This document shows, one piece after another, positions 1,374 through 14,321 of a DNA stretch of 38,183 nt. The position numbers and the translations under genes are program-made. Location of the stretch: the NCBI GenBank assembly GCA_015478655.1, contig JADMIJ010000038.1, positions 1 to 38,183 of the forward strand. Direction: 5' to 3'. The notes below the pieces were generated by a model that saw only the letters and a program-made list of their open reading frames with translations, was not told where the DNA came from and did no database searches. The stretch is from Acidimicrobiales bacterium (lineage in GTDB: Bacteria > Actinomycetota > Acidimicrobiia > Acidimicrobiales > RAAP-2). Position 1 is the stretch's first letter; each line of letters begins with the position of its first letter.

Positions 1374-1730
1374 TCAGGCCTGTGGACGCTCCCAGCAGCT
1401 CACATGGGTGCACTCCCCGACCTGCACCGTGTACTCGAGGTAGAACTCATCGCGGCCCCGCTGTTGGGCGCGGCGGTGACGAGGGTCGTCTCTCCATGCC
1501 CAATGCGTTGCGGGCGAGTCGAACGTGACCAGCGAGACTCGTTCACCGTCTTCAGCGACGAAGGTCTTGAAATCGATGAAGCCCTGAGCCGCCCGAGCCG
1601 CTGCTTCCATGGCCCCGGCCACTTCGACATAGGCGTCCTCCGACTTGTCCCGCCGACGGGACCTGAACACGGTCACCACCTGGCCGGGGGCGAACGCGCC
1701 GCGTGGCGAGCCGTCCCCGGTGGCCTCCAT
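1374..1730 (-). CDS. ABM-domain (antibiotic biosynthesis monooxygenase-like) small protein
   Basis: A 118-residue protein that looks like one ferredoxin-like ABM domain, the fold of HmoA-type heme-degrading enzymes and small quinone monooxygenases. Seen: an initial strand VVTVFRSRRR, a helix with AMEAAARAAQGFIDFKTFVAEDGERVSLVTFDS, then WAWRDDPRHRRAQQRGRDEFYLEYTVQVGE, the usual order of strand, helix, strand and a W..P.H..AQ..GR motif. It is a single domain without signal peptide, so probably cytosolic. It starts 10 nt after the serA stop on the same strand and is probably cotranscribed with it, which does not tell its substrate. Family assignment is fairly secure; the reaction is unknown. Confidence 0.7.
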   Translation of the reverse strand: MEATGDGSPRGAFAPGQVVTVFRSRRRDKSEDAYVEVAGAMEAAARAAQGFIDFKTFVAEDGERVSLVTFDSPATHWAWRDDPRHRRAQQRGRDEFYLEYTVQVGECTHVSCWERPQA

Positions 1731-1740
1731 GGGTGCTGCC

Positions 1741-3306
1741 CTACGACTCGATGGTGTGCACGTCGCTGATCCCGGCAGCGGCTCGCAGGAGTTCGAGCGC
1801 CTGGTCGGGCACCGTCTGATCCGTCGACAGCACCATGAGTGCCGTGTGACCGGTGGCGGACGGTCCGACCGCCATCGAGGAGATGGACACCTCTGCCTCG
1901 CCCAGGATGGTTCCCACTACGCCGATCATGCCGGCGCGGTCGTCGTTGCGGACCACGATCATGTGGGGGGCGGGGGGCACCTCCACCGTGTGGTCGTCCA
2001 TCATCACCAACCGCGGTTCGGTGCGCGGCCCGGTGAGGGTCCCGGCCACGGAGTGGTCGCCACTGCGCAGCGTGATCAGGTTGACGAAGTCGTGCGCCGT
2101 CACCGTCGACGTCTCCCGCACCTCCAGGCCACGCTCGGCCGCCAGCTGGGGGGCATTGACGTAGGAAACCGGCTCGGCCGTTCCGGCCGCGAACAGGCCC
2201 TTGAGCACCGACAGGGTGAGGATGCCGGTGCCGGCACCGGCCAGTCCCCCTTGGTACTCGATCTCCAACGTGTCGGGCAGCCCGTCGTTCAGGCAGGAGA
2301 CGATCCGACCCAGCTGCTCGGCCAACCCCATGAAGGGCCTGACGGTCTCGGAGACGTCGGTGGCCGCCACGTTGACGGCGAAGGGCACGAAGTCGCCGTT
2401 GAGGGCCAGGATGACCTGCTCGGCGATCGTGACCCCGGCCTTGTCCTGGGCCTCGGTGGTCGAAGCGCCCAGATGGGGGGCCACCACCACCGAGGACAGC
2501 TCGAAGAGTGGGGACTCGGTGGTCGGCTCCTTGGCGAACACGTCGAGTCCGGCGCCCTGGACCTGCCCGGATCGGATGGCCTCGGCCAGCGCCTCCTCGT
2601 CCACGATGCCGCCGCGGGCGGTGTTGATGATGCGGAGCCCCGGCTTGGCTTTGGCCAGTAGCTCCTTGCCGATCAACCCGAGGGTCTCCGCGTTCTTCGG
2701 CAGGTGGACGGTCACGAAGTCGGACGCACCGATGAGCGTGTCGAGGTCCATGAGCTCGACACCCATGTGCCTGGCCCGGTCGGCCGACACGAACGGGTCG
2801 TAGGCCACGATCCGCATGCCGAAGGCCATCGCCCGCTGCGCCACCAGGGCCCCCACCCTGCCCAGCCCGACCACGCCGAGGGTCTTGCCGTGCAGCTCGA
2901 CGCCCTCCCACTTCGATCGCTCCCACTTGCCGGCCACCAGGGCGGCGTGGGCCTGCGGGATGTTGCGCGCCTGGGCCAACAACAGGGCCATGGCCTGCTC
3001 GGCGGCTGAGAGGATGTTCGACTGGGGCGCATTGACCACCATCACCCCGCGTTCGGTGGCCGCGGCGACGTCGACATTGTCGAGACCGATGCCGGCCCGG
3101 CCCACCACCACCAGCTCCGCGCCGGCGGCGAGCACCTCGGCGGTCACGGTGGTGGCGGAGCGGATGACTAGGGCCTGTGCACCGACGACCGCCGAGACCA
3201 GCTCAACGGGGGACAGCCCGAGTTGCACGTCGACCTCGTGGCCGGCCTCGGCCATCAGGTCCAGGCCCGGCTGGGCCAACTTCTCCGTGACGAGCACCCT
3301 ACCCAT
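1741..3306 (-). CDS. serA: D-3-phosphoglycerate dehydrogenase
   Basis: First step of serine synthesis: oxidises 3-phosphoglycerate to 3-phosphohydroxypyruvate with NAD+. The 521 residues match the long actinobacterial form (about 530 in mycobacteria). Order: substrate-binding half, NAD-binding Rossmann domain with GLGRVG near residue 147, NTARGGIVDE supplying the catalytic Arg, GLDVFAKEP with the Glu, and PHLGAST with the His; then an intervening (ASB-type) domain and a C-terminal ACT domain (HMIVVRNDDRAGMIGVVG), usually the site of serine feedback. The ATG at 3306 has a strong AGAAAGGA Shine-Dalgarno. It lies 64 nt downstream of the aminotransferase at 3371 and next to serC. Confidence 0.96.
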   Translation of the reverse strand: MGRVLVTEKLAQPGLDLMAEAGHEVDVQLGLSPVELVSAVVGAQALVIRSATTVTAEVLAAGAELVVVGRAGIGLDNVDVAAATERGVMVVNAPQSNILSAAEQAMALLLAQARNIPQAHAALVAGKWERSKWEGVELHGKTLGVVGLGRVGALVAQRAMAFGMRIVAYDPFVSADRARHMGVELMDLDTLIGASDFVTVHLPKNAETLGLIGKELLAKAKPGLRIINTARGGIVDEEALAEAIRSGQVQGAGLDVFAKEPTTESPLFELSSVVVAPHLGASTTEAQDKAGVTIAEQVILALNGDFVPFAVNVAATDVSETVRPFMGLAEQLGRIVSCLNDGLPDTLEIEYQGGLAGAGTGILTLSVLKGLFAAGTAEPVSYVNAPQLAAERGLEVRETSTVTAHDFVNLITLRSGDHSVAGTLTGPRTEPRLVMMDDHTVEVPPAPHMIVVRNDDRAGMIGVVGTILGEAEVSISSMAVGPSATGHTALMVLSTDQTVPDQALELLRAAAGISDVHTIES

Positions 3307-3370
3307 GGCGTTCCTTTCTATTGCAGGTCAGAGAATCGAGGCATCCGGGCGCCGACCGGCACCGCCTGGA

Positions 3371-4576
3371 TCACGAAGCGTCGCTGAACAGCTTGGCCAG
3401 GCGGGACACACCTTCGACCAGGTCGTCGTCGCCCAGCGCGTAGGACATCCGGAAGTAGCCCGGCGAGCCGAACGCCTCGCCGGGCACGACCGCCACCTTC
3501 GCCTCGTCGATGGCGACCTCCGCCAGCTCGCTGCTCGAGGTCGACCTGCGGCCGCGAACCTCGCGTCCCAGGAGACCTTTTACCGACGGGAAGGCGTAGA
3601 ACGCACCTTCGGGCAGGATGCAGGTGATCCCCTCGATCTCATTGAGCATGGTGTGGATGGTCAGGCGTCGCCGGTCGAAGGCGCGCCGCATCTCGGCCAC
3701 GGCCGTCAGGTCTCCCGACACGGCAGCCAGCGCCGCAAACTGCGACACGTTGGCCACGTTGGAGGTCTCCTGCGACTGCAGGTTGGCGGCCGCCGTCACC
3801 ACGTCGGTGGGCCCGATCATCCACCCGACCCGCCACCCGGTCATGGCGTAGGTCTTGGCCACGCCGTTGACGACCACGCAGTGGTCGGCCAGGTCGGGCA
3901 CCACCACCGGCATGGAGTGGTGCTCAGCCTCCCCGTACACCAGGTGCTCGTAGATCTCGTCGGTGAGCACCCACAGGCCGTGCTCCACGGCCCACCGGCC
4001 GATGGCCTCGATCTCGTGCCGGGGATAGACGGCACCTGTGGGGTTGGACGGCGAGACGAACAGCAACACCTTGGTGCGAGGCGTCCGGGCCGACTCGAGC
4101 TGCTCGAGGGAAACCCGGAAGCCGCTCGTCTCGTCCGTCGAGATCACCACCGGAACCCCCCCCGCCAGGGCGATGACCTCGGGATAGGTGGTCCAGTAGG
4201 GAGCGGGCACGAGGACCTCGTCGCCGGGGTCGCAGAGGGTGGCGAAGGAGTTGGCGATGGCCTGCTTGCCGCCGTTGGTCACGAGGACCTGCGAAGCGGC
4301 CACCTCGAGCCCGGAGTCCCGTCTGGTCTTGGCGGCCAGGGCCTCACGCAACTCGGGCAGGCCGGCGGTCGGGGTGTACTTGTGGGATCTCGGATCGCGG
4401 CAGGCCACCTCGGCTGCGGCCACGATGTGCTCGGGCGTGGCGAAATCGGGTTCGCCGGCGCCGAATCCGATGACGCTCTCACCTTGGGCCCTCAGCTGCC
4501 TGACCTTGGCGTCGACGGCCAGGGTGGCCGACGGGGAAACGGCGGCGATACGGGTCGATATCCGTTGCCCGGTCAT
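3371..4576 (-). CDS. Pyridoxal phosphate aminotransferase, aspartate aminotransferase type
   Basis: Class I/II fold-type I aminotransferase, most like actinobacterial and thermophilic aspartate (AspC/Ib) enzymes that interconvert aspartate and oxaloacetate with glutamate/2-oxoglutarate. Seen: GAGEPDF near the start, [45 protein letters not shown], and the PLP lysine in [16 protein letters not shown]; the C-terminal FRMSYA holds the carboxylate-binding Arg. I start at the ATG at 4576 ([24 protein letters not shown]), as family members do; the frame is open to 4651 but the extra residues are not conserved. It probably forms one transcript with serA and diverges from serC, from which 65 nt separate it. 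A role in serine-linked transamination is possible, but specificity is inferred. Confidence 0.9.
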
Positions 4577-4641
4577 GGCCTGGCACCGGGCGGGGAGGTC
4601 CGGCAGGCGCTGCCGTTTTCTGTCCAATGGGCCATGGTGCC

Positions 4642-5799
4642 ATGATTCCATACGTGACCGAGACCCCCGACATCACCATCCCCTCCAACCTGCTTCCGGG
4701 TGACGGACGGTTCGGCTCCGGTCCGTCGAAGGTCCGGCCCGCCGCCGTCGAAGCCCTGGCCGCGGCGGCTGGGGGCTATCTCGGGACCAGCCACCGCCAG
4801 AAGACGGTCAAGTCCGTGGTGGGCAGCCTCCGGGCCGGGCTGCGACAGCTCTTCTCGCTGCCAGACGGGTACGAGGTGGCTCTGGGGAACGGGGGCACCA
4901 CGTGTTTTTGGGACGCCGCCACCTTCGGGCTGATCGACCGCCGGAGCCAGCATCTGACCTTCGGCGAGTTCTCGTCCAAGTTCGCGTCAGCGGCCGCCGA
5001 GGCGCCACATCTGGGCCATCCCGAGATCCTGGCCTCCGAGGTCGGGACCCACCCGGATCCGGTGGCCCGGGAGGACATCGACCTCTATGCCCTCACCCAC
5101 AACGAGACGTCCACCGGGGTGATGATGCCGATCGTCCGCCCGGACGGTGCCCTGGCGCCCACCGAGGGAGGTGGCCTGGTGGCGGTCGACGCCACGTCGG
5201 GCGCCGGCGGCCTGAGGGTGGATCCGGCCCAGTTCGATGCCTACTACTTCGCCCCCCAGAAGTGCTTCGGCTCGGATGGCGGGCTGTGGGTGGCGCTGCT
5301 GTCCCCGGCGGCCCAGGACCGCATCCGGGCCATCTCCGCCACCAAGCGCTGGGTGCCGGCCTCGTTGGACCTGAGCATCGCCCTCGACAACTCCAAGCTC
5401 GACCAGACCTACAACACGCCGGCCCTGGCCACCATCTTCCTCTTCGAGGACCAGGTTGCCTGGTTCAACGACCACGGCGGCATGGACTTCTCGGCCGGCC
5501 GGTGCGACACGTCCTCCGAGACCCTGTACACCTGGGCCGACAATTCAGACTTTGCCACGCCCTTCGTGACCAGGGAGCAGGACCGTAGCCACGTGGTGGG
5601 TACGGTCGACCTGGTCGACTCGGTCGATGCCGCCGTGGTGGCCGCCATCCTCCGGGCCAACGGGATCGTGGACACCGAGCCATACCGCAAGCTGGGCCGC
5701 AACCAGTTGCGCATCGCCATGTTCCCCTCGGTAGACCCCGACGACGTGGCGTCACTCTGCGCCTGCATCAACTATGTGGTGGGGGCGATCGCCGGCTGA
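4642..5799 (+). CDS. serC: Phosphoserine aminotransferase, actinobacterial type
   Basis: Second step of serine synthesis: transfers an amino group from glutamate to 3-phosphohydroxypyruvate. The sequence follows mycobacterial SerC closely: [22 protein letters not shown] at the N-terminus, [50 protein letters not shown], the PLP lysine in [16 protein letters not shown], and [25 protein letters not shown] near the end. Starts at 4627, 4642 or the GTG at 4654 are all in frame without a good Shine-Dalgarno; I chose 4642. It is divergent from the aminotransferase/serA pair, so the first two dedicated serine-pathway enzymes sit side by side; serB is not in the window. Confidence 0.95.
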
Positions 5800-6199: not shown

Positions 6200-7225
6200 T
6201 CAGCCGCCGGAGATTTCCTGGATCTTCTGCCTCCCGGCGGTCACGAACGGCATCATGTCGCGGAGTTGCGCACCCACCTTCTCGATGGGGTGGTCGAGCC
6301 CGGCCTGACGCAGCGCCTTGAAGTTCGGGCGGCCGTTGGCGTTCTCCGCCACCCACTCCTTGGCGAAGGTGCCGTCCTGGATCTCCCCCAGGATTCGGCC
6401 CATCTCGTCACGAACGGCCTCGTTGATGACCCGGGGGCCCCGGGTGAGATCGCCGTACTCAGCGGTGTCCGAGATGGAGAACCGCATGCCGCCGATCCCC
6501 TGCTCGTACATGAGGTCGACGATCAGCTTGAGCTCGTGCAGGCACTCGAAATAGGCCGACTCGGGCTGATAGCCGGCCCCGACCAGGGTCTCGTACCCCG
6601 CCTGCACCAGTGCGGTGAGCCCACCACAGAGCACCACCTGCTCGCCGAACAGGTCGGTCTCCGTCTCCTCGGCAAACGTGGTGTCGAGGACGCCGGCACG
6701 GGTGGCGCCGATGGCATGGGCATAGGACAGCGCCAGATCGTGGGCCTTGCCCGACGGATCGGCCGAGACCGCCACCAGTGACGGCACCCCTCCCCCTTCG
6801 GTGTAGGTACGGCGGACCAGATGGCCCGGTCCTTTTGGGGCCACCATGGCCACGTCGACCTCGGCCGGCGGGGTGATCAGACCGAACCGGATGTTGAAGC
6901 CATGGGCAAAGAAGATGGCATCGCCGGCCTTGAGATGGGGGGCGATCTCCGCCTCGTAGACGGCGGCCTGTTCGGTGTCCGGCAACAGGATCATGATCAC
7001 ATCGGCCTCGGCGGATGCGTCGGCCACCGAGAGCACCCTCAGCCCCGCCTCTTCCGCCTTCTGCCTGGACGACGATCCGTCCCGAAGGCCCACCCGCACG
7101 TCGACACCGCTCTCCGACAGGTTGAGAGCGTGGGCGTGGCCCTGTGAGCCGTAGCCGATGACGGCCACCTTGCGGTTCCCGATGAGGCTCGCGTCCGCAT
7201 CCTTCTCGTAGTACAGCGTGGCCAT
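6200..7225 (-). CDS. ilvC: Ketol-acid reductoisomerase, class I
   Basis: Second step of valine/isoleucine synthesis: Mg2+-dependent alkyl migration and NADPH reduction of acetolactate or acetohydroxybutyrate. About 341 residues, the class I length. Seen: [19 protein letters not shown], the nucleotide-binding motif [13 protein letters not shown], a GLRDGSSSR segment fitting [19 protein letters not shown], metal-binding acids in [14 protein letters not shown], and [14 protein letters not shown] with later metal and substrate contacts. I start at the ATG at 7225, 5 nt after the ilvH stop, with AGAAGGCAGG upstream; a TTG at 7234 overlapping the ilvH stop is also in frame. Last gene of the ilvBHC transcript. 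Confidence 0.97.
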
Positions 7226-7230
7226 TGTGA

Positions 7231-7800
7231 TCAACCTGCCTTCTCTGTGGTGAGCGCCACCGGGGACTCCGGACGGGGCGGTGCCAAGTGCTCACCGGAC
7301 CGGTCCAGCATAGGCAATGCCACCCGGCCCGATCGCTGCATCTCCACGATCCCGTAGGCCCGGATGAGATCCTCGAAATCGTCCAGCTTGGTGGGGGCTC
7401 CGGCCAGCATCACCGTGAGCCGGTCGGGCCCGACGTCCACGATCTTCCCCTCGAACACCCCCACCAGTTGGATGACCTGGCCCCTGGTGTCGGCTGCAGC
7501 CTCCACGGTGGCCAACAGCAGCTCCCGCTCCCGCGATCGCTCCGGGTCCAGCTCGGTGATCGAAACCACGGGAATCAGCTTGTCGAGTTGTTTGATGATC
7601 TGCTCCAGCGGGGAGGACTCCACGTCCACGACGATGGTGATCCTGCTGAAGCGCTCATTGTCGGACGGCGCCACGGCCAGGCTGAAGATGTTGTAGCCGC
7701 GGCGGGAGAACAGCCCCGCCACCCGGGCCAGCACCCCCGACTTGTTCTCCACCAGCACCGTGAGGGTGTGGTGGCGCTTGTCGGTGCCGTAGACGCTCAT
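7231..7800 (-). CDS. ilvH: Acetolactate synthase small (regulatory) subunit
   Basis: Regulatory subunit of acetohydroxyacid synthase; it raises catalytic-subunit activity and confers feedback inhibition by valine or related amino acids. The 189 residues hold an N-terminal ACT domain ([28 protein letters not shown]) and a C-terminal ALS_ss domain ([20 protein letters not shown]...[18 protein letters not shown]). Its ATG overlaps the ilvB stop in an ATGA, so the two subunits are probably translated in a coupled way. Also called ilvN in actinobacteria. Confidence 0.96.
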
Positions 7801-9620
7801 CTGCCGTCTCCTTCGGTCAGCGACGGGTCGACGATGATGTCGTCGTTGGACGCGCCGGCGGCCACCATCGGGAACACCTTCTCGAAGGCATCGGTGCGAA
7901 AGTCGATCACCACCGGGCGGTCGTCGATGTCATTGGCCTTGTCGATGGCCGACGCCACCTCCTCGGTGGAATCGACGCGGATGCCCACGCATCCCATGGC
8001 CTCGGCCCAACCCACGTAGTCAGGCAGATCCGGCGACAGGTAGACCTCGGAGTAGCGCTCTTCGTAGAACATCTCCTGCCACTGGCGAACCATCCCCAGG
8101 TAGGCATTGTTGAGAATGGCGATCTTCACCGGGATGCGCTCCGAGCTGGCGGTCACCAATTCCTGGGCCGTCATCTGGAAGCAGCCGTCTCCGTCCACCG
8201 CCCACACCATCTTGTCGGGCCGGCCCACCTTGGCCCCGATGGCCGCCGGCACCGCGAATCCCATCGTGCCGAGGCCTCCCGAGTTGACCCAGGTGTACGG
8301 GTAGTCGAACTGCCACCACTGGGAGGCGAACATCTGATGCTGGCCCACCCCCGAGGCCACGATGGTGTCGTCAGGAGTGGCATCCCGCAGCGCCTCCAGC
8401 ACGAACTGGGGCTTGAGGGCCCCCGAACCGGGCTGTTGGTCATAGACCAGCGGGAACCGCCCCTGCCACTGGCTGAGCTGGGCGCGCCAGGGGATGAGCC
8501 GTTCGCGGGGGTGCGACGCGGCCACCGAGCCTGCCGTCGCCGGTGCGCCGGACACGGCGTCGGAGGGCGCCCCTCCCGAGCCGCCGCGGGTGGCATCCGA
8601 ATGGGGCAGCCCGAGGTCGGCCAGCGCCACCAACATCTCGTCGATCACCAGGCGGCAGTCGCCGGCGATGGCGACGTCGGCGTGTCGCACCTTGTGGAGC
8701 TCGGCGGGATCGATGTCGACGTGGATGATCTTGGCCTCGGGAGCGAACGCGTCTATCCGTCCGGTCACCCGGTCATCGAAGCGGCTACCCAGCGCGATCA
8801 ACAGATCCGAGCGCTGCATGGCTGTCACCGCGGTGTAGTTGCCGTGCATGCCCGGCATCCCCAGGCACAGCGGATGCGAGTCGGGAAAGCAGCCCCGGGC
8901 CATCAGGGTGGTGACCACCGGGATGCCCGTCCGCTCCGCCAGCTCTCGCAAGGCCTCGGCGCCGCGGGCCTTGAGGATGCCGCCGCCCGCGTAGATCACC
9001 GGCCGCTCGGCGGCCAGCAACATCTCGACGGCCTGGCGCACCAGCACCGGATCACCCTCAGTCAGCGGGTGGTAGCCGGGGAGATCGAGATCGGACGGCC
9101 CGGGGTGGTACCACTCCATGGGTTTGATGGCCACGTCCTTGGGCACGTCGATCAGCACCGGGCCGGGACGGCCGGTGGTGGCCACGTGAAACGCCTCGGC
9201 CACCACCCGGGGGATGTCGGCTCCGTCCGTGATCAGCCAGTTGTGCTTGGTGATCCCCATGGTGATGCCGGTGATGTCACTCTCCTGGAAGGCGTCGGTG
9301 CCGATGGCCGAGGTGGCGACCTGGCCGGTCACCACCACCAGCGGGATCGAGTCCATGTAGGCGTCGGCCAGCGGCGTGACGATGTTGGTGGCTCCGGGTC
9401 CGCTGGTGACCATGGCCACCCCGGGCCGGCCGGTGACCTGGGCGTAGCCCTCGGCCATGTGGCCGGCGCCCTGCTCGTGGCGCACCAGGATGTGCCGGAT
9501 CGACGAGTCGATGATCGGGTCGTAGACAGGCAGGATGGCACCGCCGGGGAGGCCGAACATGACCTCCACCTGCTGCATCTCCAAGCTCTTGATCAGCGCT
9601 TGTGCTCCTGTGAGTTCCAT
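7797..9620 (-). CDS. ilvB: Acetolactate synthase large (catalytic) subunit
   Basis: First common step of branched-chain amino acid synthesis: condenses two pyruvates, or pyruvate and 2-oxobutyrate, using thiamine diphosphate and FAD. Seen: [27 protein letters not shown], catalytic Glu in [22 protein letters not shown], an FAD-type middle domain, and the ThDP motif running from GDGCFQMT to ILNN. I start at the ATG at 9620, with a strong AAGGAG 6 nt upstream; the in-frame extension to 9740 runs through the attenuator hairpins and is not coding. A Gly/Ala/Ser-rich stretch of about 30 residues (about 8512-8607) interrupts the linker before the C-terminal domain. Expression is probably controlled by the leader at 9702-9812. 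Confidence 0.97.
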
Positions 9621-9701
9621 CGGGTGCTCCTTGTCGGCGATGGCCGGTTGTCGGTTGGTGGGTGACCCGGATCTCGGGGCCGGTGGCCTGTGGCGGGACA
9701 T

Positions 9702-9727
9702 GAAAACGACCTCCCGTTCGGGAGGTC
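9702..9727 (-). terminator. ilvB leader: Intrinsic terminator of the ilvB attenuator
   Basis: On the minus strand the arms GACCTCCC and GGGAGGTC pair around GAAC and are followed by GTTTTC: a compact GC-rich hairpin with a short T-run. It lies between the leader peptide and ilvB, 81 nt upstream of the ilvB start, so it would stop transcription before the structural genes unless disrupted. Confidence 0.8.
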
Positions 9728-9732
9728 GGAAA

Positions 9733-9762
9733 GCGCACACGGCAAGAAGGCGTCGTGTGCGC
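9733..9762 (-). promoter_or_regulatory. ilvB leader: First hairpin of the ilvB attenuator
   Basis: The 9-nt arms GCGCACACG and CGTGTGCGC pair perfectly around a 12-nt loop. The hairpin begins at the last base of the leader peptide stop codon, so a ribosome stalled on the upstream Ile/Leu/Val codons would cover its 5' arm. Its loop contains CCTTCT, which can pair (with G-U wobbles) with GGGAGG in the 3' arm of the terminator, a possible antiterminator. The alternative pairing is inference. Confidence 0.65.
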
Positions 9763-9812
9763 TACGAAACGAGTACCAGGGCGATCTGAAGGTACGGCGG
9801 GCTCACGTGCAT
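9762..9812 (-). CDS. ilvB leader peptide (branched-chain amino acid attenuation)
   Basis: A 16-codon ORF reading MHVSPPYLQIALVLVS then TAG. Codons 10-15 are Ile-Ala-Leu-Val-Leu-Val, so translation would slow when the three branched-chain amino acids or their charged tRNAs are scarce. The stop codon abuts a strong hairpin and then a terminator, in the order expected of ribosome-mediated attenuation. ATG at 9812 has GGGGA only 2-3 nt upstream; the in-frame GTG at 9806 has better spacing (8 nt). Alternatively the message is leaderless, since CAGACT lies 9 nt before the ATG. Leader peptides upstream of ilvB are known in Corynebacterium and other actinobacteria; this sequence was read directly, its role is inferred. 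Confidence 0.78.
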   Translation of the reverse strand: MHVSPPYLQIALVLVS

Positions 9813-9821
9813 GGTCCCCAC

Positions 9822-9851
9822 AGTCTGGCACGGCCCGGGTGGTCCCGACAA
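9822..9851 (-). promoter_or_regulatory. Candidate promoter of the ilvB leader transcript
   Basis: TTGTCG (9846-9851) and CAGACT (9822-9827) are separated by 18 nt on the minus strand. The -10 is one base off TANNNT and ends 9 nt before the leader ATG. It sits between the ilvD stop and the leader ORF. Visual call only. Confidence 0.4.
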
Positions 9852-9934
9852 GCGCGTCCCGAAAGACGGTTCACCGCTCCCTTCCGGTCCCGTGGAAGCC
9901 GACCCCGTCCCCGTCCCGCCGGCGGCCCCATGGT

Positions 9935-11650
9935 TCAGGGCTCGGTGATGGCGCCCCGATCTGCTCCCGTGACCAGTCGGGCGTACTTGGCCAGCACGCC
10001 CGACGTGTAGCGGGGAGCGGGGTGCTTGAGCCCGCGGCGGCGGCGTGCTAGCTCACCGTCGTCGACTATCAGATCGAGCGTGTGATTGACCACATCGACG
10101 ACGATGCGATCTCCGTCCGCCACCAGGCTGATGGGCCCCCCGTCGACCGCCTCCGGGGCCACGTGGCCGATGCAGAAGCCCTGGGTCCCGCCGGAGAACC
10201 GGCCATCGGTGATCAGCGCGCAGTCACCGCCTCGGCCCACGCCCTTCATGGCCCCGGTCACCGCCAGCATCTCCCGCATCCCCGGACCGCCCTTGGGCCC
10301 TTCGTAGCGGATGACCATGACGGTGTTCGGCTGGATCGAGCCGCCAAGGATGGCTTCCATGGCCAGATCCTCCCCGTCGAACACCCGGGCCGTGCCGTCG
10401 AAGCTCAGCTGGTCGAGCCCGGCCACCTTGACCACGGCGCCCTGGGGAGCCAGCGTTCCCCGCAAGACGGCGATGCCCCCCTGGACGTGGATGGGATCGT
10501 CGATCACATGCACGACGTCGCCGTCCGGTGCCGGTGGGTGGAGTGCGGCCAGATTGTCGGCAACGGTCATCCCGGTCACGGTCATGCAGTCACCGTGCAG
10601 GAGGCCGGCGTCGAGGAGCTCCTGCATCACCACCGGGACACCGCCGATCCGGTCGAGGTCGCTCATGTGGTACTTGCCGTGCGGCTTGGTGTCGGCGAGG
10701 TGGGGAACCCGGGCGGCAACCTGGTTGAAGTCGTCCAGGGCCAACTCCACCCGGGCCTCGTTGGCGATGGCCAACAGGTGGAGCACGGCGTTGGTGGAAC
10801 CCCCGAGGGCCATGGTCACGGCAATGGCATTCTCGAACGCCGGCCTCGTCATCACCTGACGCGGGCGGATGCCGGCGCGGAGCAGGGCCACCACCGCCTC
10901 CCCCGAACGGAAGGCGGCATCGTCGCGGCGCCGGTCGACGGCCGGGGGCGACGAGCTGCCCGGGAGGGACATTCCCAGGGCCTCCGCCACCGAGGCCATG
11001 GTGTTGGCCGTGAACATTCCGGCGCAGGAGCCCTCGGTGGGACAGGCATTGTGCTCGATCAGGCTCAGCTCCTCGTCCGTGAGTGCCTCGACGGCGTGAG
11101 CACCGACCGCCTCGAACACCGAGGTGATGTCCAGGGCCCGGTCGCCCACCCGACCCGGGAGGATGGAGCCTCCGTAAACGAACACGCTCGGCAGGTTCAG
11201 CCGGGCGGCGGCCATGAGCATGCCGGGCAGTGACTTGTCGCACCCGGCCAGAGTGACCAGACCGTCGAACCGTTCGGCGTGCATGACCGTCTCCACCGAG
11301 TCGGCGATGACCTCACGGCTCACCAATGAGGCGCGCATGCCCTCGTGGCCCATGGAGATGCCGTCGGACACTGCGATGGTCATGAACTCGAGCGGAAAGC
11401 CGCCCGCCTCCCGGACCCCGTCCTTGGCCCGCTTGGCCAGTCGTTCGAGGGGCAGGTTGCACGGGGTGACCTCGTTCCACGACGACGCCACCCCGATCTG
11501 GGGCTTGTCCCAGTCCTCGTCGGTCATGCCGACCGCCCGGAGCATCGCCCGGGCCGGGGCCCTGGTCGGACCGTCGGTCACCTCGAAGCTGCGGGGTTTG
11601 AGGCCGACCAGGGGCTCTTCCGCGGGATCGGTACCCGTCTGTTCGCTCAT
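9935..11650 (-). CDS. ilvD: Dihydroxy-acid dehydratase
   Basis: Third step of valine/isoleucine synthesis: dehydrates 2,3-dihydroxy-acids to 2-keto-acids. 571 residues, the usual length. Seen: [23 protein letters not shown] (Cys64), [12 protein letters not shown] (Cys137) and [20 protein letters not shown] (Cys209), the three cysteines that bind the iron-sulfur cluster (probably [2Fe-2S] as in mycobacterial IlvD); [33 protein letters not shown]; and a closing [21 protein letters not shown]. No Shine-Dalgarno precedes the ATG, but TACCAT lies 6 nt upstream, so the mRNA is probably leaderless. It is upstream of the attenuator and separated from ilvB by 314 nt, so it may be expressed apart from ilvBHC. 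Confidence 0.97.
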
Positions 11651-11656
11651 CCCTGC

Positions 11657-11662
11657 ATGGTA
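11657..11662 (-). promoter_or_regulatory. Candidate -10 of ilvD (leaderless)
   Basis: TACCAT on the minus strand, 6 nt before the ilvD ATG, fitting TANNNT at leaderless spacing. No clear -35. Confidence 0.45.
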
Positions 11663-11703
11663 CGACGTCGCCGTCGGGAGGCGGACGTGCGCGCCGGCCG
11701 ATC

Positions 11704-11726
11704 AATTGGCATACTTGATGTCAATT
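11704..11726. promoter_or_regulatory. AT-rich inverted repeat between ilvD and the dehalogenase gene
   Basis: Arms AATTGGCAT and ATGTCAATT flank ACTTG: nine pairs, one of them G-T, in an AT-rich island within high-GC DNA. It lies 42 nt upstream of the proposed ilvD -10 and 45 nt upstream of the dehalogenase ATG, as an operator shared by the divergent genes would. CATACT inside it could be a -10 for the plus strand. Confidence 0.5.
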
Positions 11727-11771
11727 AGCCCAGCACGGCTGGGGCCGTCGATCCCGAAGGTGACCAGTCCG

Positions 11772-12680
11772 ATGGATGTGCTTCGTACCCCAGACAGCCG
11801 CTTCGAGGGGTTACCCGGATTCGGGTTCGCGCCTCACTATGCCGAGCTCTCCGATCAGGACGGTGGTGCCCTCCGGGCTCACTACCTCGAAGAAGGGCCG
11901 CCGGACGGCCAGGCGGTCGTCCTGCTCCATGGCGAGCCGTCGTGGAGCTACCTCTACCGGCACATGGTTCCCGTGCTGGCCGATGCCGGCTTGCGGGCGG
12001 TGGCGCCCGACCTGGTGGGTTTTGGCCGCTCCGACAAGCCGACCCCGCGGTCCGAGTACACCTTCGCCCGCCATGTGGAGTGGATGCGTGAGCTCCTCTT
12101 CGACCGGCTCGACCTCTCCGCGGTGACCCTGGTGTGCCAGGACTGGGGTGGCCTGATCGGCCTTCGGCTGGTAGGCGAGCACCCGGAGCGCTTCGACCGG
12201 GTCGTGGCGGCCAACACCTTCCTGCCCACCGGTGACACCCCGCCCGGGGAGGCGTTCCTCGGATGGCTCAAATTCTCCCAAGAGGTGGAGGAATTCCCCA
12301 CCGGCACCATCGTCAACGCCGGCTGTGTCTCGGAGCTGAGCCCGGAGGTCATCGCGGCCTACGATGCACCGTTCCCCGACCAGTCCCTCGCCGAGGGCGC
12401 ACGGCAGTTCCCGATGCTGGTCCCGATTTCCCCCGACGACCCGGCGGCGCCCGCCAACCGCCAGGCCTGGTCGGTCCTCGAGACGTTCGACAAGCCGTTC
12501 CTCACCGCCTTCAGCGACGGCGATCCCATCACAGCCGGTGCTGAGCGGCAGTTGCAGGCCCGCATCCCCGGCTGCCGCGGGCAACGCCACGTGACCATCG
12601 CCGGAGGCGGCCATTTCCTCCAAGAGGACAAGGGTCCCGAGTTGGCCCGGGTGGTCGTCGATTTCGTCCGCGCCACCTGA
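11772..12680 (+). CDS. Haloalkane dehalogenase, subfamily I-like
   Basis: Alpha/beta hydrolase that would cleave carbon-halogen bonds of haloalkanes to alcohol and halide. 302 residues. Seen: HGEPSWSYLYR (oxyanion region, Glu55), nucleophile and first halide-binding Trp in VCQDWGGLIGL (Asp124, Trp125), DLVGFGRSDKP, a cap containing Trp165 as possible second halide ligand, probable acid Asp251 in FSDGDPIT, and catalytic His281 in GGGHFLQED. The HGEP and QDWGG signatures separate it from epoxide hydrolases and esterases. ATG at 11772 has GAAGGTGA about 8 nt upstream; the frame is open further left but crosses ilvD. Divergent from ilvD. The natural substrate may not be a haloalkane. Confidence 0.85.
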   Translation: MDVLRTPDSRFEGLPGFGFAPHYAELSDQDGGALRAHYLEEGPPDGQAVVLLHGEPSWSYLYRHMVPVLADAGLRAVAPDLVGFGRSDKPTPRSEYTFARHVEWMRELLFDRLDLSAVTLVCQDWGGLIGLRLVGEHPERFDRVVAANTFLPTGDTPPGEAFLGWLKFSQEVEEFPTGTIVNAGCVSELSPEVIAAYDAPFPDQSLAEGARQFPMLVPISPDDPAAPANRQAWSVLETFDKPFLTAFSDGDPITAGAERQLQARIPGCRGQRHVTIAGGGHFLQEDKGPELARVVVDFVRAT

Positions 12681-12693
12681 TCGGCGGCGCCGG

Positions 12694-13947
12694 TCAGGAC
12701 TTCGGGATACCGCCCGGGACGCCCGGAGCGTCGAGAGCCTGCAGGCGCCGATCGATGAACCGGCGTTCCGCCTCATTGTTGGTCTGCTGGCGAGCTCGTC
12801 GGTAGGCGACGGCGGCCTCCTCGAGCCGTCCCGACCTGCGGAGCAGGTCCGCTCTGGTGGCCTGGAAGAGGTGGTACTCGGCCAGCGGGCGGGCCAGGGC
12901 CGGGTCATCCATCAACGAGAGACCGGCCGCCGGCGAATCGGCCATGGCCACGGCCACGGCGCGATTGAGCTGCACCACCGGCGTGGGCTCCCACAGGAGC
13001 AAGGCGTCATACAGACGGACGATGGTATTCCAATCGGTGAGGTCAGATCGAGGTGCAGAGACATGGATCGCGCTGATGGACGCCTTCAATTGGTAAGGAC
13101 CGGGTCGATCCACGCTCCGCGCCCGGTCCAAGAGGGCCAGTCCCGCGGCCACCTTCTCGGTGTCCCATCGCGAGCGGTCCTGCTCCTCGAGGGTGAGGGG
13201 GACCCCTTGAGGGTCGACCCGGGCGTCGCGGCGTGCGTCCTGGATGTGCATCATCGCCGCCAGGCTCAGCGGCTCGGGACCGTCGGGCATGAGGTCGATG
13301 ACCACGCCGATCAGGCGCAATGCCTCATCGCAGAGATCCACCCTGACCAGATCGGTGCCGGAGGGAGGGAGGTAGCCGGCGTTGAAGATCAGATAGACCA
13401 CCGCCAGCACGGCCGCCAGCCGGTCGGGTAGTTCGTCGGGAGCAGGGACCCGGTAGCCGATCCCCGCCTGTCGGATCTTGCGCTTGGCCCGCACGATCCG
13501 CTGGGCCAGGGCCGTCTCGGAGATGAGAAAGGCCTTGGCCACCTCTTCGGTGGACAGTCCTCCGAGCGAGCGCAGGGTGAGCGCCACCTGGGCTTCGAGG
13601 GTGAGCGCGGGATGGCAGCAGGTGAAGATCAGGCGCAGTCGATCATCGGCGATGGGTTGGGTGCCGTCCCCGATGTCCCAGGCCACCGACAGCTCCCCCC
13701 ACGCCCGGTTGCGCCGCTCCGACGCGGCACCGCTGCGCAACCGGTCGATGGCCTTGCGCCTGGCCGTGGTGACCAGCCATCCGGCCGGGTTCACGGGCAC
13801 TCCGTGGACCGGCCAGGTCGACGCCGCTGCCACCAGTGCGTCCTGAAGGGCGTCCTCGGCCAGGTCGAAGTCCCGCAGGATGCCGATGAGACGGGCGAGC
13901 ACCCGGTCGCGATCAGCCCTGTAGGCGGCATCGAGCGCGTCGCCCAC
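12694..13947 (-). CDS. ECF sigma factor, ECF42-type with C-terminal TPR-like domain
   Basis: Alternative sigma factor directing RNA polymerase to its own promoters. About 417 residues. Region 2: AAYRADRDRVLARLIGILRDFDLAEDALQDALVAA and GWLVTTARRKAIDRLR. Region 4: LTLRSLGGLSTEEVAKAFLISETALAQRIVRAKRKIR. The long C-terminal part (YLIFNAGYLPPSG..., LCDEALRLIGVV, LNRAVAVAMADSPAAGL, AEYHLFQATRADLLRRSGR) is the TPR-like extension of this class, which replaces an anti-sigma factor. The GTG at 13947 gives the usual length; longer ATG starts overlap the partner gene. It follows the DGPF gene by 38 nt, the standard pairing for ECF42. Confidence 0.9.
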   Translation of the reverse strand: MGDALDAAYRADRDRVLARLIGILRDFDLAEDALQDALVAAASTWPVHGVPVNPAGWLVTTARRKAIDRLRSGAASERRNRAWGELSVAWDIGDGTQPIADDRLRLIFTCCHPALTLEAQVALTLRSLGGLSTEEVAKAFLISETALAQRIVRAKRKIRQAGIGYRVPAPDELPDRLAAVLAVVYLIFNAGYLPPSGTDLVRVDLCDEALRLIGVVIDLMPDGPEPLSLAAMMHIQDARRDARVDPQGVPLTLEEQDRSRWDTEKVAAGLALLDRARSVDRPGPYQLKASISAIHVSAPRSDLTDWNTIVRLYDALLLWEPTPVVQLNRAVAVAMADSPAAGLSLMDDPALARPLAEYHLFQATRADLLRRSGRLEEAAVAYRRARQQTNNEAERRFIDRRLQALDAPGVPGGIPKS

Positions 13948-13985
13948 AGAGGCTGATCCATGGCGAGCCGGGTCAACGCCCAGCG

Positions 13986-14321
13986 CTACATCTCCGCCAC
14001 GGGACGGACCTCGACGGAGCCGAACTTGGCAGAAGGCACCATGGCGGCCGCCTTCAAGGCCTGATCGAGGTTGTCGCACTCGATCACGTAGTAGCCGGAC
14101 ATCCACTCCTTGGTCTCTTCGAAGGGCCCGTCGACGACCAGGGTCTCGCCATTGCGGATCCGCACGGTGGTGGCCGTGCTGGGGTCATTGAGCGGAGCGC
14201 CCGTGTACGAGCCCAGCTGTTCGCTGAACGCCGCATAGTCCGCCATCAGCTGGCCCCATTCCGGGTCCCCCGGCGTGGGGTGGGTGCTGGGGTCGTTGTG
14301 GATCATCAACATGTATTGCAC
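13986..14321 (-). CDS. DGPF/YCII-related protein, ECF42 partner
   Basis: A 111-residue YCII-fold protein with the signature DGPFEETKEWMSGYYVIECDNLDQALKAAAMVP. Proteins of this family are almost always encoded beside ECF42 sigma factors; their biochemical role is unsettled, and they are not anti-sigma factors of the usual transmembrane kind. The start is a GTG at 14321 (QYMLMIHNDP follows) with AGGAG 6 nt upstream. It is the first gene of a two-gene unit with the sigma factor and probably part of the same regulon. Confidence 0.9.
   Translation of the reverse strand: MQYMLMIHNDPSTHPTPGDPEWGQLMADYAAFSEQLGSYTGAPLNDPSTATTVRIRNGETLVVDGPFEETKEWMSGYYVIECDNLDQALKAAAMVPSAKFGSVEVRPVAEM

Follow-up and report, generated by a model that had tools for sequence, protein, structure and literature searches.

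A candidate ribosome-mediated attenuator of ilvBNC in the Acidimicrobiia, with sibling leaders at leuA and cimA

Introduction

Attenuation of ilvB is established in enterobacteria. The trp and his attenuators of E. coli combine a leader peptide, ribosome stalling and an intrinsic terminator, and classical attenuators of this kind carry a pause hairpin. Among actinobacteria, one of the closest described systems is the ilvB1NC operon of M. tuberculosis, in which a leader ORF encoding LVVI, with a GUA codon among its sensing codons, is followed by a terminator before ilvB; changing LVVI to AAAA abolished induction, and the model put forward there has a ribosome on the stop codon keep a termination-preventing structure from forming (PMC13236596). 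A second is the ilvB-II motif of Corynebacterium, which lies 5' of ilvB, has a leader ORF rich in Ile, Leu and Val codons and two stems, the second of which is the terminator, and is supported by a reporter test (PMC10272879). For three actinobacterial genera, a 2005 survey listed candidate ilvB leaders together with their terminators, and called their mode of regulation unclear (PMC1262725). Leader peptides at both ilvB and leuA, some of them leaderless, are also described in that survey, where the leuA version is the LEU element, and for ilvL and leuL of Streptomyces lividans (PMC8079986); the portions of these two papers considered here describe no leader for cimA. In an open-access collection, which leaves out most subscription journals, we found no description of attenuators in Acidimicrobiia or of a citramalate synthase leader.

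Here we describe a leader between ilvD and ilvB that is very probably a ribosome-mediated attenuator switching ilvBNC off when leucine, valine and isoleucine are plentiful, as judged from its sequence and that of its relatives. Its relatives suggest that attenuators specific to particular amino acids occur as a set throughout the class, in a phylum for which the survey had called the regulation of ilvB unclear (PMC1262725); later tests of that regulation were made in Corynebacterium (PMC10272879) and in M. tuberculosis (PMC13236596).

Results

The window, by which we mean the whole 38,183-nt stretch of DNA that was analysed, belongs to a 4.47-Mb genome in 347 contigs. The closest named relatives of its ilvB, among the best 80 of 588 from a scan of GTDB genomes, are Acidimicrobiales and Acidimicrobiaceae MAGs (92% identity), and we therefore take its class to be Acidimicrobiia. 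The minus strand reads ilvD, leader, ilvB, ilvN and ilvC, with all four enzymes above the cut-offs of their NCBIfam models: dihydroxy-acid dehydratase (ilvD, 9935–11650; TIGR00110, 742.5 bits, cut-off 618), the large subunit of acetolactate synthase (ilvB, 7797–9620; TIGR00118, 751 bits, cut-off 538), its small subunit (ilvN, 7231–7800; TIGR00119, 172.5 bits, cut-off 56.9) and ketol-acid reductoisomerase (ilvC, 6200–7234; TIGR00465, 448 bits, cut-off 226). The leader and its promoter occupy the gap between ilvD and ilvB, and ilvD ends about 120 nt 5' of the leader ATG. Rfam release 15 yielded no covariance model match at the gathering score in the window, and none at E ≤ 1 in 9600–9940.

The putative promoter (9822–9851, minus strand) has a -35-like TTGTCG at 9851–9846, an 18-nt spacer and an extended -10 element, TGcCAGACT, whose TG lies at 9830–9829 and whose hexamer, at 9827–9822, ends 9 nt 5' of the leader ATG. 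The leader ORF, MHVSPPYLQIALVLVS* (9762–9812, minus strand; ATG 9812–9810, TAG 9764–9762), has 16 codons and is probably leaderless. Its peptide ends Leu-Val-Leu-Val-Ser, and the putative sensing codons are Ile10 (ATC), Leu12 (CTG), Val13 (GTA), Leu14 (CTC) and Val15 (GTT). Hairpin 1 (9732–9763, minus strand) has a 10-bp outer stem, AGCGCACACG/CGTGTGCGCT, whose base is formed by the last bases of the stop codon. A 3-nt linker, TTC, separates it from an intrinsic terminator (9703–9728, minus strand) made of a 9-bp stem-loop at 9728–9707, CGACCTCCC-GAAC-GGGAGGTCG, and the run TTTT at 9706–9703; the U tract as a whole, TTTTC, is weak. The Shine-Dalgarno sequence of ilvB, AAGGAG, follows at 9627–9632 (minus strand), ahead of the ATG at 9620. 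The locus thus has a short leader ORF in which codons for the amino acids made by the operon lie near the stop and, by sequence and fold, an intrinsic terminator between that ORF and the first gene. A preliminary description of this DNA had drawn much the same layout: direct reading bears out its minus-strand ORF rich in Ile, Leu and Val codons, as well as the TTTT after the second hairpin and the Shine-Dalgarno sequence of ilvB, and both of its hairpins are present, although the stem sizes and spacing it gave differ from ours by 1–2 bases, depending on where a stem is taken to end.

We compared the leader across the best 80 of the 588 ilvB relatives. Their titles name mostly Acidimicrobiia or unclassified actinobacteria, and four name other groups, possibly as mislabelled MAGs (L025, Acidobacteriota; L043 and L074, Bifidobacterium breve; L085, Thermoanaerobacterales). 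Two loci were dropped, having only 1 and 41 nt of upstream DNA (L023 and L032). All 78 loci with usable upstream DNA have codons rich in branched-chain residues, hairpin 1 and the terminator. A first stem finder misread hairpin 1 or the stop codon in some rows (L016, L065), and later counts were taken from whole folds. A covariance model, R1, built from 71 of the 79 sequences (the window and its 78 relatives), matches each of the 79 once and on the correct strand, besides four weak matches on the opposite strand (20.7–23.9 bits). Two further matches in the window's own genome, both at 18.6 bits, were judged to be chance.

R1 is widespread in the class: at E ≤ 0.01 it matches 336 of 395 genomes, and by genus 161 of 183. 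Across the phylum it matches 93 of 396 genomes at E ≤ 0.001, of which 61 belong to other classes; these are upper figures, owing to cross-matches with the leuA and cimA models introduced below (R2 shares at least three sites with R1, in G164, G245 and G253, and R3 at least one ilvB site, in G047). Seventeen of 20 outside-class loci, read by eye, have at least three Ile, Leu or Val codons among the last seven before the stop; L282, L283 and L290 have fewer. One genome (G369) has three R1 matches, of which that at 1501–1578 of L119 precedes a complete ilvB (1630–3372) and an ilvN-like ORF, and its species may carry two attenuated ilvB operons. At L281 and L293 the element matches, yet the longest downstream ORF in the stretch examined is not ilvB-like; L281 has an ORF that reads MKIEIYNGEHVGTAEWQAPGRV...

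For quantitative work, 179 ilvB leaders were reduced to 147 by removing 32 redundant ones, among them the window itself, which is nearly identical to a row that was kept. One locus set contributed 100 of its 107 members (L193–L198 and L086 were left out), and once two loci, L282 and L292, had been excluded from the other-class set, 17 of the remaining 18 could be parsed. Measured from the first base that follows the stop codon, hairpin 1 begins at -2 to +2 nt in all 147 leaders, as it does among the parsed leuA, cimA and other-class loci. The gap between hairpin 1 and the terminator is 0–7 nt, with medians of 2 in the 147 ilvB leaders, 0 in 17 leuA leaders, 2 in 12 cimA leaders and 0 in the 17 other-class loci.

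Both stems are supported by fold strength and covariation. The 181-nt fold of the window has a z-score of -2.23, with 7 of 200 shuffles equally stable, and over the 147 leaders the mean z-scores are -4.23 for hairpin 1 and -4.77 for the terminator, in segments cut by their own fold, which favours low values. Among the 71 aligned sequences, 95.9% of cells pair. Compensatory, double-sided changes occur at 11 of 15 pairs, compared with a shuffled mean of 5.8 and with none of 500 shuffles as high, in a structure taken from the same alignment; they affect 7 of 7 pairs in hairpin 1 and 4 of 8 in the terminator. Alignment across relatives was the check by which the preliminary description proposed that its attenuator be judged, and in it the sensing codons are kept and both stems covary.

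A start codon was found in 146 of the 147 non-redundant loci, and in 131 the best -10 hexamer ends 6–9 nt before it. Because the start codon was chosen partly by its -10 box, the evidence lies in the shuffle control rather than in the raw fraction: 97% of loci, compared with 19% of shuffles, have a -10 score of at least 8. A motif resembling a Shine-Dalgarno sequence precedes only 7 of the 146 starts. This spacing suggests that the leader ORF is leaderless, a possibility already raised for the window, and comparison across relatives likewise favours the earlier suggestion that residues 1–9 are lineage-specific.

From codon -6 to codon -2, the fraction of Ile, Leu or Val is 0.63, 0.91, 0.99, 0.92 and 0.91 in the 147 leaders. 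Valine is encoded by GTA in 233 of 340 leader codons (69%), whereas in the ilvB genes themselves GTA accounts for 55 of 3070 (1.8%; odds ratio 119), as counted over the first 1500 nt of 67 genes from named contigs; in the leaders of the same 67 loci the count is 96 of 147, and in the window's own ilvB it is 0 of 55. CTA is slightly raised (9 of 231 leader Leu codons, versus 29 of 2465), and TTA (0 of 231) and ATA (0 of 71) are absent from ilvB leaders. The sibling leaders described below favour other codons: CTT at leuA (24 of 58 Leu codons, versus 132 of 2465, in 17 leaders preselected for Leu runs) and ATT at cimA (16 of 44 Ile codons, versus 139 of 1969, in 12 leaders preselected for Ile runs). 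According to theory, the choice among synonymous codons sets the sensitivity of a leader (PMC1183508), and theories about the codon best suited to sensing starvation could be examined on the GTA bias as a natural example. The bias appears to be new; for M. tuberculosis, a single GUA among the sensing codons has been noted.

Second R1 matches led us to Ile leaders (...TTTAIIIC and ...PAAIIIIP) 5' of genes for citramalate synthase, identified by TIGR00977 (685.7 and 688.1 bits, cut-off 450); among 12 such matches examined, two (L294 and L298) were judged false. A search with PF00682 gave matches in 40 of 41 genomes, which we divided, on the strength of their score and matched range, between a cimA and a leuA type; 20 loci of each type were taken, their types resting on score and range rather than on individual assignment. 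A strict scan, requiring a run of at least three codons, a stop, an abutting hairpin pair and a U tract, found Leu runs only at leuA (16 of 20 loci, versus 0 of 20 at cimA) and Ile runs only at cimA (9 of 20 loci, versus 0 of 20 at leuA); a looser scan raised these to 17 leuA and 10 cimA loci. At 30 trpE loci (from 40 matches) the strict scan found no Leu or Ile runs with a hairpin pair. Trp-run leaders were sought at the same 30 loci and none was credible, although six had Trp pairs ahead of a stop codon but lacked the two hairpins.

The window's own genome has a leuA version, MYIATTSELLLT (L219, found by the looser scan), which the leuA model, R2, matches at 68.7 bits; the cimA model, R3, has no match there. 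With some cross-matches included, R2 is found in 176 of 296 genomes of the class and R3 in 80 of 198. At five loci of other genomes (L295, L296, L297, L301 and L302) Ile/Val leaders (VIIIE, IVIIR, FVVITT, VAIIA and VIIIP) precede what we take by eye to be leuB and ilvE, followed by cimA; the cimA genes of L295 and L296 come from the PF00682 search. Elsewhere, leuA leaders are described with a candidate pseudoknot (PMC1262725) or with no typical terminator (PMC8079986), whereas those of the Acidimicrobiia have the hairpin-plus-terminator design. Within the leuA set (L219–L238), CACAT is common to the hairpin 1 region of 6 of 17 leaders, an internal bulge interrupts several of the terminator stems (CCTCCTGCGCC / GGGCCAGGGGG), and the leader sequence is conserved beyond the needs of a plain terminator.

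These data bear on the alternative that the two hairpins form a constitutive terminator, or that hairpin 1 aids termination, with the leader ORF incidental. Hairpin clusters are reported to induce termination (PMC8355165), and, also in its favour, the end of ilvD lies about 120 nt from the leader ATG on the upstream side. Such a terminator would need neither sensing codons, nor a GTA bias, nor matched Leu and Ile versions, nor a promoter between ilvD and the ORF, and a hairpin 1 that aided termination would invert the expected regulation. We regard this alternative as very improbable.

The preliminary description had proposed that stalling frees CCTTCT of hairpin 1 to pair with GGGAGG of the terminator, so that the loop of hairpin 1 would take the terminator's 3' arm and unmake it. 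In the window, GCCTTCT of inner hairpin 1 does stand opposite GGGAGGT of the terminator, with 7 pairs. A related model is published for ilvB-II, in which the right shoulder of P2 is the proposed partner of the P1 loop (PMC10272879); most of P1 lies within the ORF of that motif, whereas in the Acidimicrobiia hairpin 1 starts at the stop codon. Complementarity between inner hairpin 1 and the terminator 3' arm exceeds shuffles at ilvB (reached by 0 of 300 in the first set and 1 of 200 in the larger one), and in the first 79 rows a locus's own partners also outdid swapped ones (12 of 500 swaps reached the observed value). We withdrew this support after analysis of the 147-row set, in which own pairs are no better than swapped ones (145 of 200), as is also the case for 17 leuA (156 of 200) and 12 cimA loci (195 of 200). 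Nor does complementarity exceed shuffles at leuA (155 of 200) or cimA (196 of 200), and 8 of the 12 cimA loops have only 3–4 nt. The 17 other-class loci, by comparison, beat both controls (2 of 200 each), and a switch of this kind may exist outside the window's class. Thus the proposed pairing can be drawn in the window and lacks support across the ilvB, leuA and cimA loci of the class, and we think it unlikely that this is how the leader works.

Pairing of the leader codons, or of the 5' part of the ORF, with either terminator arm showed no excess over shuffles. By inspection, the Ile runs (ATCATCATT) are poor partners for GC-rich stems, so the sensing codons seem to act through their translation and not by forming part of an RNA switch.

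We then asked what a ribosome would do to the folding of the leader. Masking the start of hairpin 1 at equilibrium, the folding check suggested in the preliminary description, leaves the terminator at a probability of 0.99; this measure is uninformative because the E. coli trp terminator likewise stays at 0.98 in all four ribosome states, and equilibrium folding of the full leader was dropped as a discriminator. Antiterminators were instead sought by folding transcripts that end before the terminator's 3' arm, with the ribosome footprint masked (assumed to span -15 to +12 of the A site). In the controls, pairing of the terminator 5' arm rises on stalling: from 0.08 at the stop to 0.38 at Trp10 and 0.73 at Trp11 for E. 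coli trp, whereas for E. coli his it is 0.19 with the ribosome at the stop and 0.69 with it on three His codons. Unlike these, most Acidimicrobiia loci show no such change by the same computation. Mean 5' arm pairing at codon -4, codon -3 and the stop is 0.19, 0.25 and 0.30 for the 147 ilvB loci, 0.31, 0.34 and 0.47 for the 17 leuA loci, and 0.21, 0.27 and 0.39 for the 12 cimA loci, so that in none of the three sets does stalling raise it. Some loci may, on these predictions, use a base-paired antiterminator, pairing at codon -4 exceeding 0.5 in 12 ilvB, 1 leuA and 2 cimA loci, but it also exceeds 0.5 at the stop, in 21, 9 and 2 loci, respectively.

In these predictions it is hairpin 1 that responds most strongly to where the ribosome stands. 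Its mean probability in the 147 ilvB leaders is 0.96 with the A site at codon -4, 0.68 at codon -3 and 0.002 at the stop; at codon -4 it is 0.95 for leuA and 0.98 for cimA, and it is about zero at the stop for both. In the window, hairpin 1 is predicted at 0.99 with the A site at Ile10, 0.98 at Val13, 0.70 at Leu14, 0.03 at Val15 and 0 at the stop, while the terminator 5' arm pairs at 0.38, 0.18, 0.18, 0.19 and 0.40. A stall on Val15 would already melt hairpin 1 in this model, and only earlier stalls would signal.

Discussion

Our favoured explanation, which we consider probable, is that the leader is a ribosome-mediated transcription attenuator of the ilvBNC operon in which hairpin 1 antagonises the terminator. 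Transcription would start at or beside the leader ATG, so that a ribosome would load on the 5' end of the RNA and follow RNA polymerase. With charged Val, Leu and Ile tRNAs plentiful, the ribosome would reach the stop codon and melt hairpin 1, leaving the terminator 3 nt downstream to work and ilvBNC off. With these tRNAs scarce, it would halt on the codons before the stop, Val13 GTA being the likeliest sensor; hairpin 1 could then form against the terminator and antagonise it, and polymerase would read on. This sign of the effect follows from the role of the operon: stalling of the ribosome should leave a biosynthetic operon switched on, and formation of hairpin 1 should therefore mean read-through. 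The antagonism could come from steric hindrance at the RNA exit channel or from a changed folding race; a likely cause is that closing the base of the terminator near the RNA-DNA hybrid would draw hairpin 1 into the exit channel, where it would misfit. We infer from sequence both that the cell regulates with this leader and the manner in which hairpin 1 weakens the terminator. As to the first, the preliminary description's proposal of attenuation by a Leu/Val/Ile leader peptide gains strong support from conservation, covarying stems, the GTA bias and the leuA and cimA versions.

Two published observations count against parts of this explanation. Hairpin clusters are argued to induce termination (PMC8355165), and in the ilvB leader of Streptomyces coelicolor a codon substitution was without effect, as reported in PMC1262725. 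The weakness of the U tract counts against it as well.

The same folding results could be read differently, with hairpin 1 serving only to pause RNA polymerase until the ribosome arrives and with antitermination brought about by a protein factor or by ribosome contact, either of which would be invisible in the RNA. In its position just after the leader stop, hairpin 1 resembles the pause hairpin known from classical attenuators, and most loci gave no antiterminator. This reading is improbable in our estimation; it leaves unexplained that hairpin 1 abuts the terminator, at 0–7 nt and with a median of 0 at leuA and in other classes.

A more general form of the favoured explanation is attenuation without an exclusive antiterminator: a hairpin at the stop codon would report ribosome position and antagonise the terminator that it abuts, in a module reused with swapped codons for Leu, Val and Ile at ilvB, for Leu at leuA, and for Ile or Ile/Val at cimA and leuB-ilvE-cimA, in one actinobacterial class and parts of others. 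We hold the chances of this broader statement to be evenly balanced. For M. tuberculosis, a mutually exclusive antiterminator is proposed in a leader RNA of 166 nt (PMC13236596), whereas at most Acidimicrobiia loci we found none, the terminator lies directly against hairpin 1 and the leader ORF is apparently leaderless; the two systems are likened here by description, not by sequence. Attenuators of this kind are thus already known, and what appears to be new is the class-wide family with its Leu and Ile siblings, terminators included, together with, if our reading holds, the absence of an exclusive antiterminator. With these leaders one could test whether a terminator can be controlled by an adjacent hairpin with which it has no bases in common.

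Some minor features of the window complete its description. An ATG at 9701–9699 (minus strand), directly 3' of the U tract, is in frame with ilvB, and the terminator's GGGAGG, 8 nt upstream, is a possible Shine-Dalgarno sequence; this ATG looks incidental, since only 7 of the 71 rows of alignment A1 have an ATG within their last 10 nt. Other ORFs of the window, named by eye, are presumably a phosphoserine aminotransferase (4627–5799, plus strand), a haloalkane dehalogenase-like hydrolase (11214–12680, plus strand), an ECF-type sigma factor (12694–14106, minus strand) and a YCII-like protein (13986–14321, minus strand).
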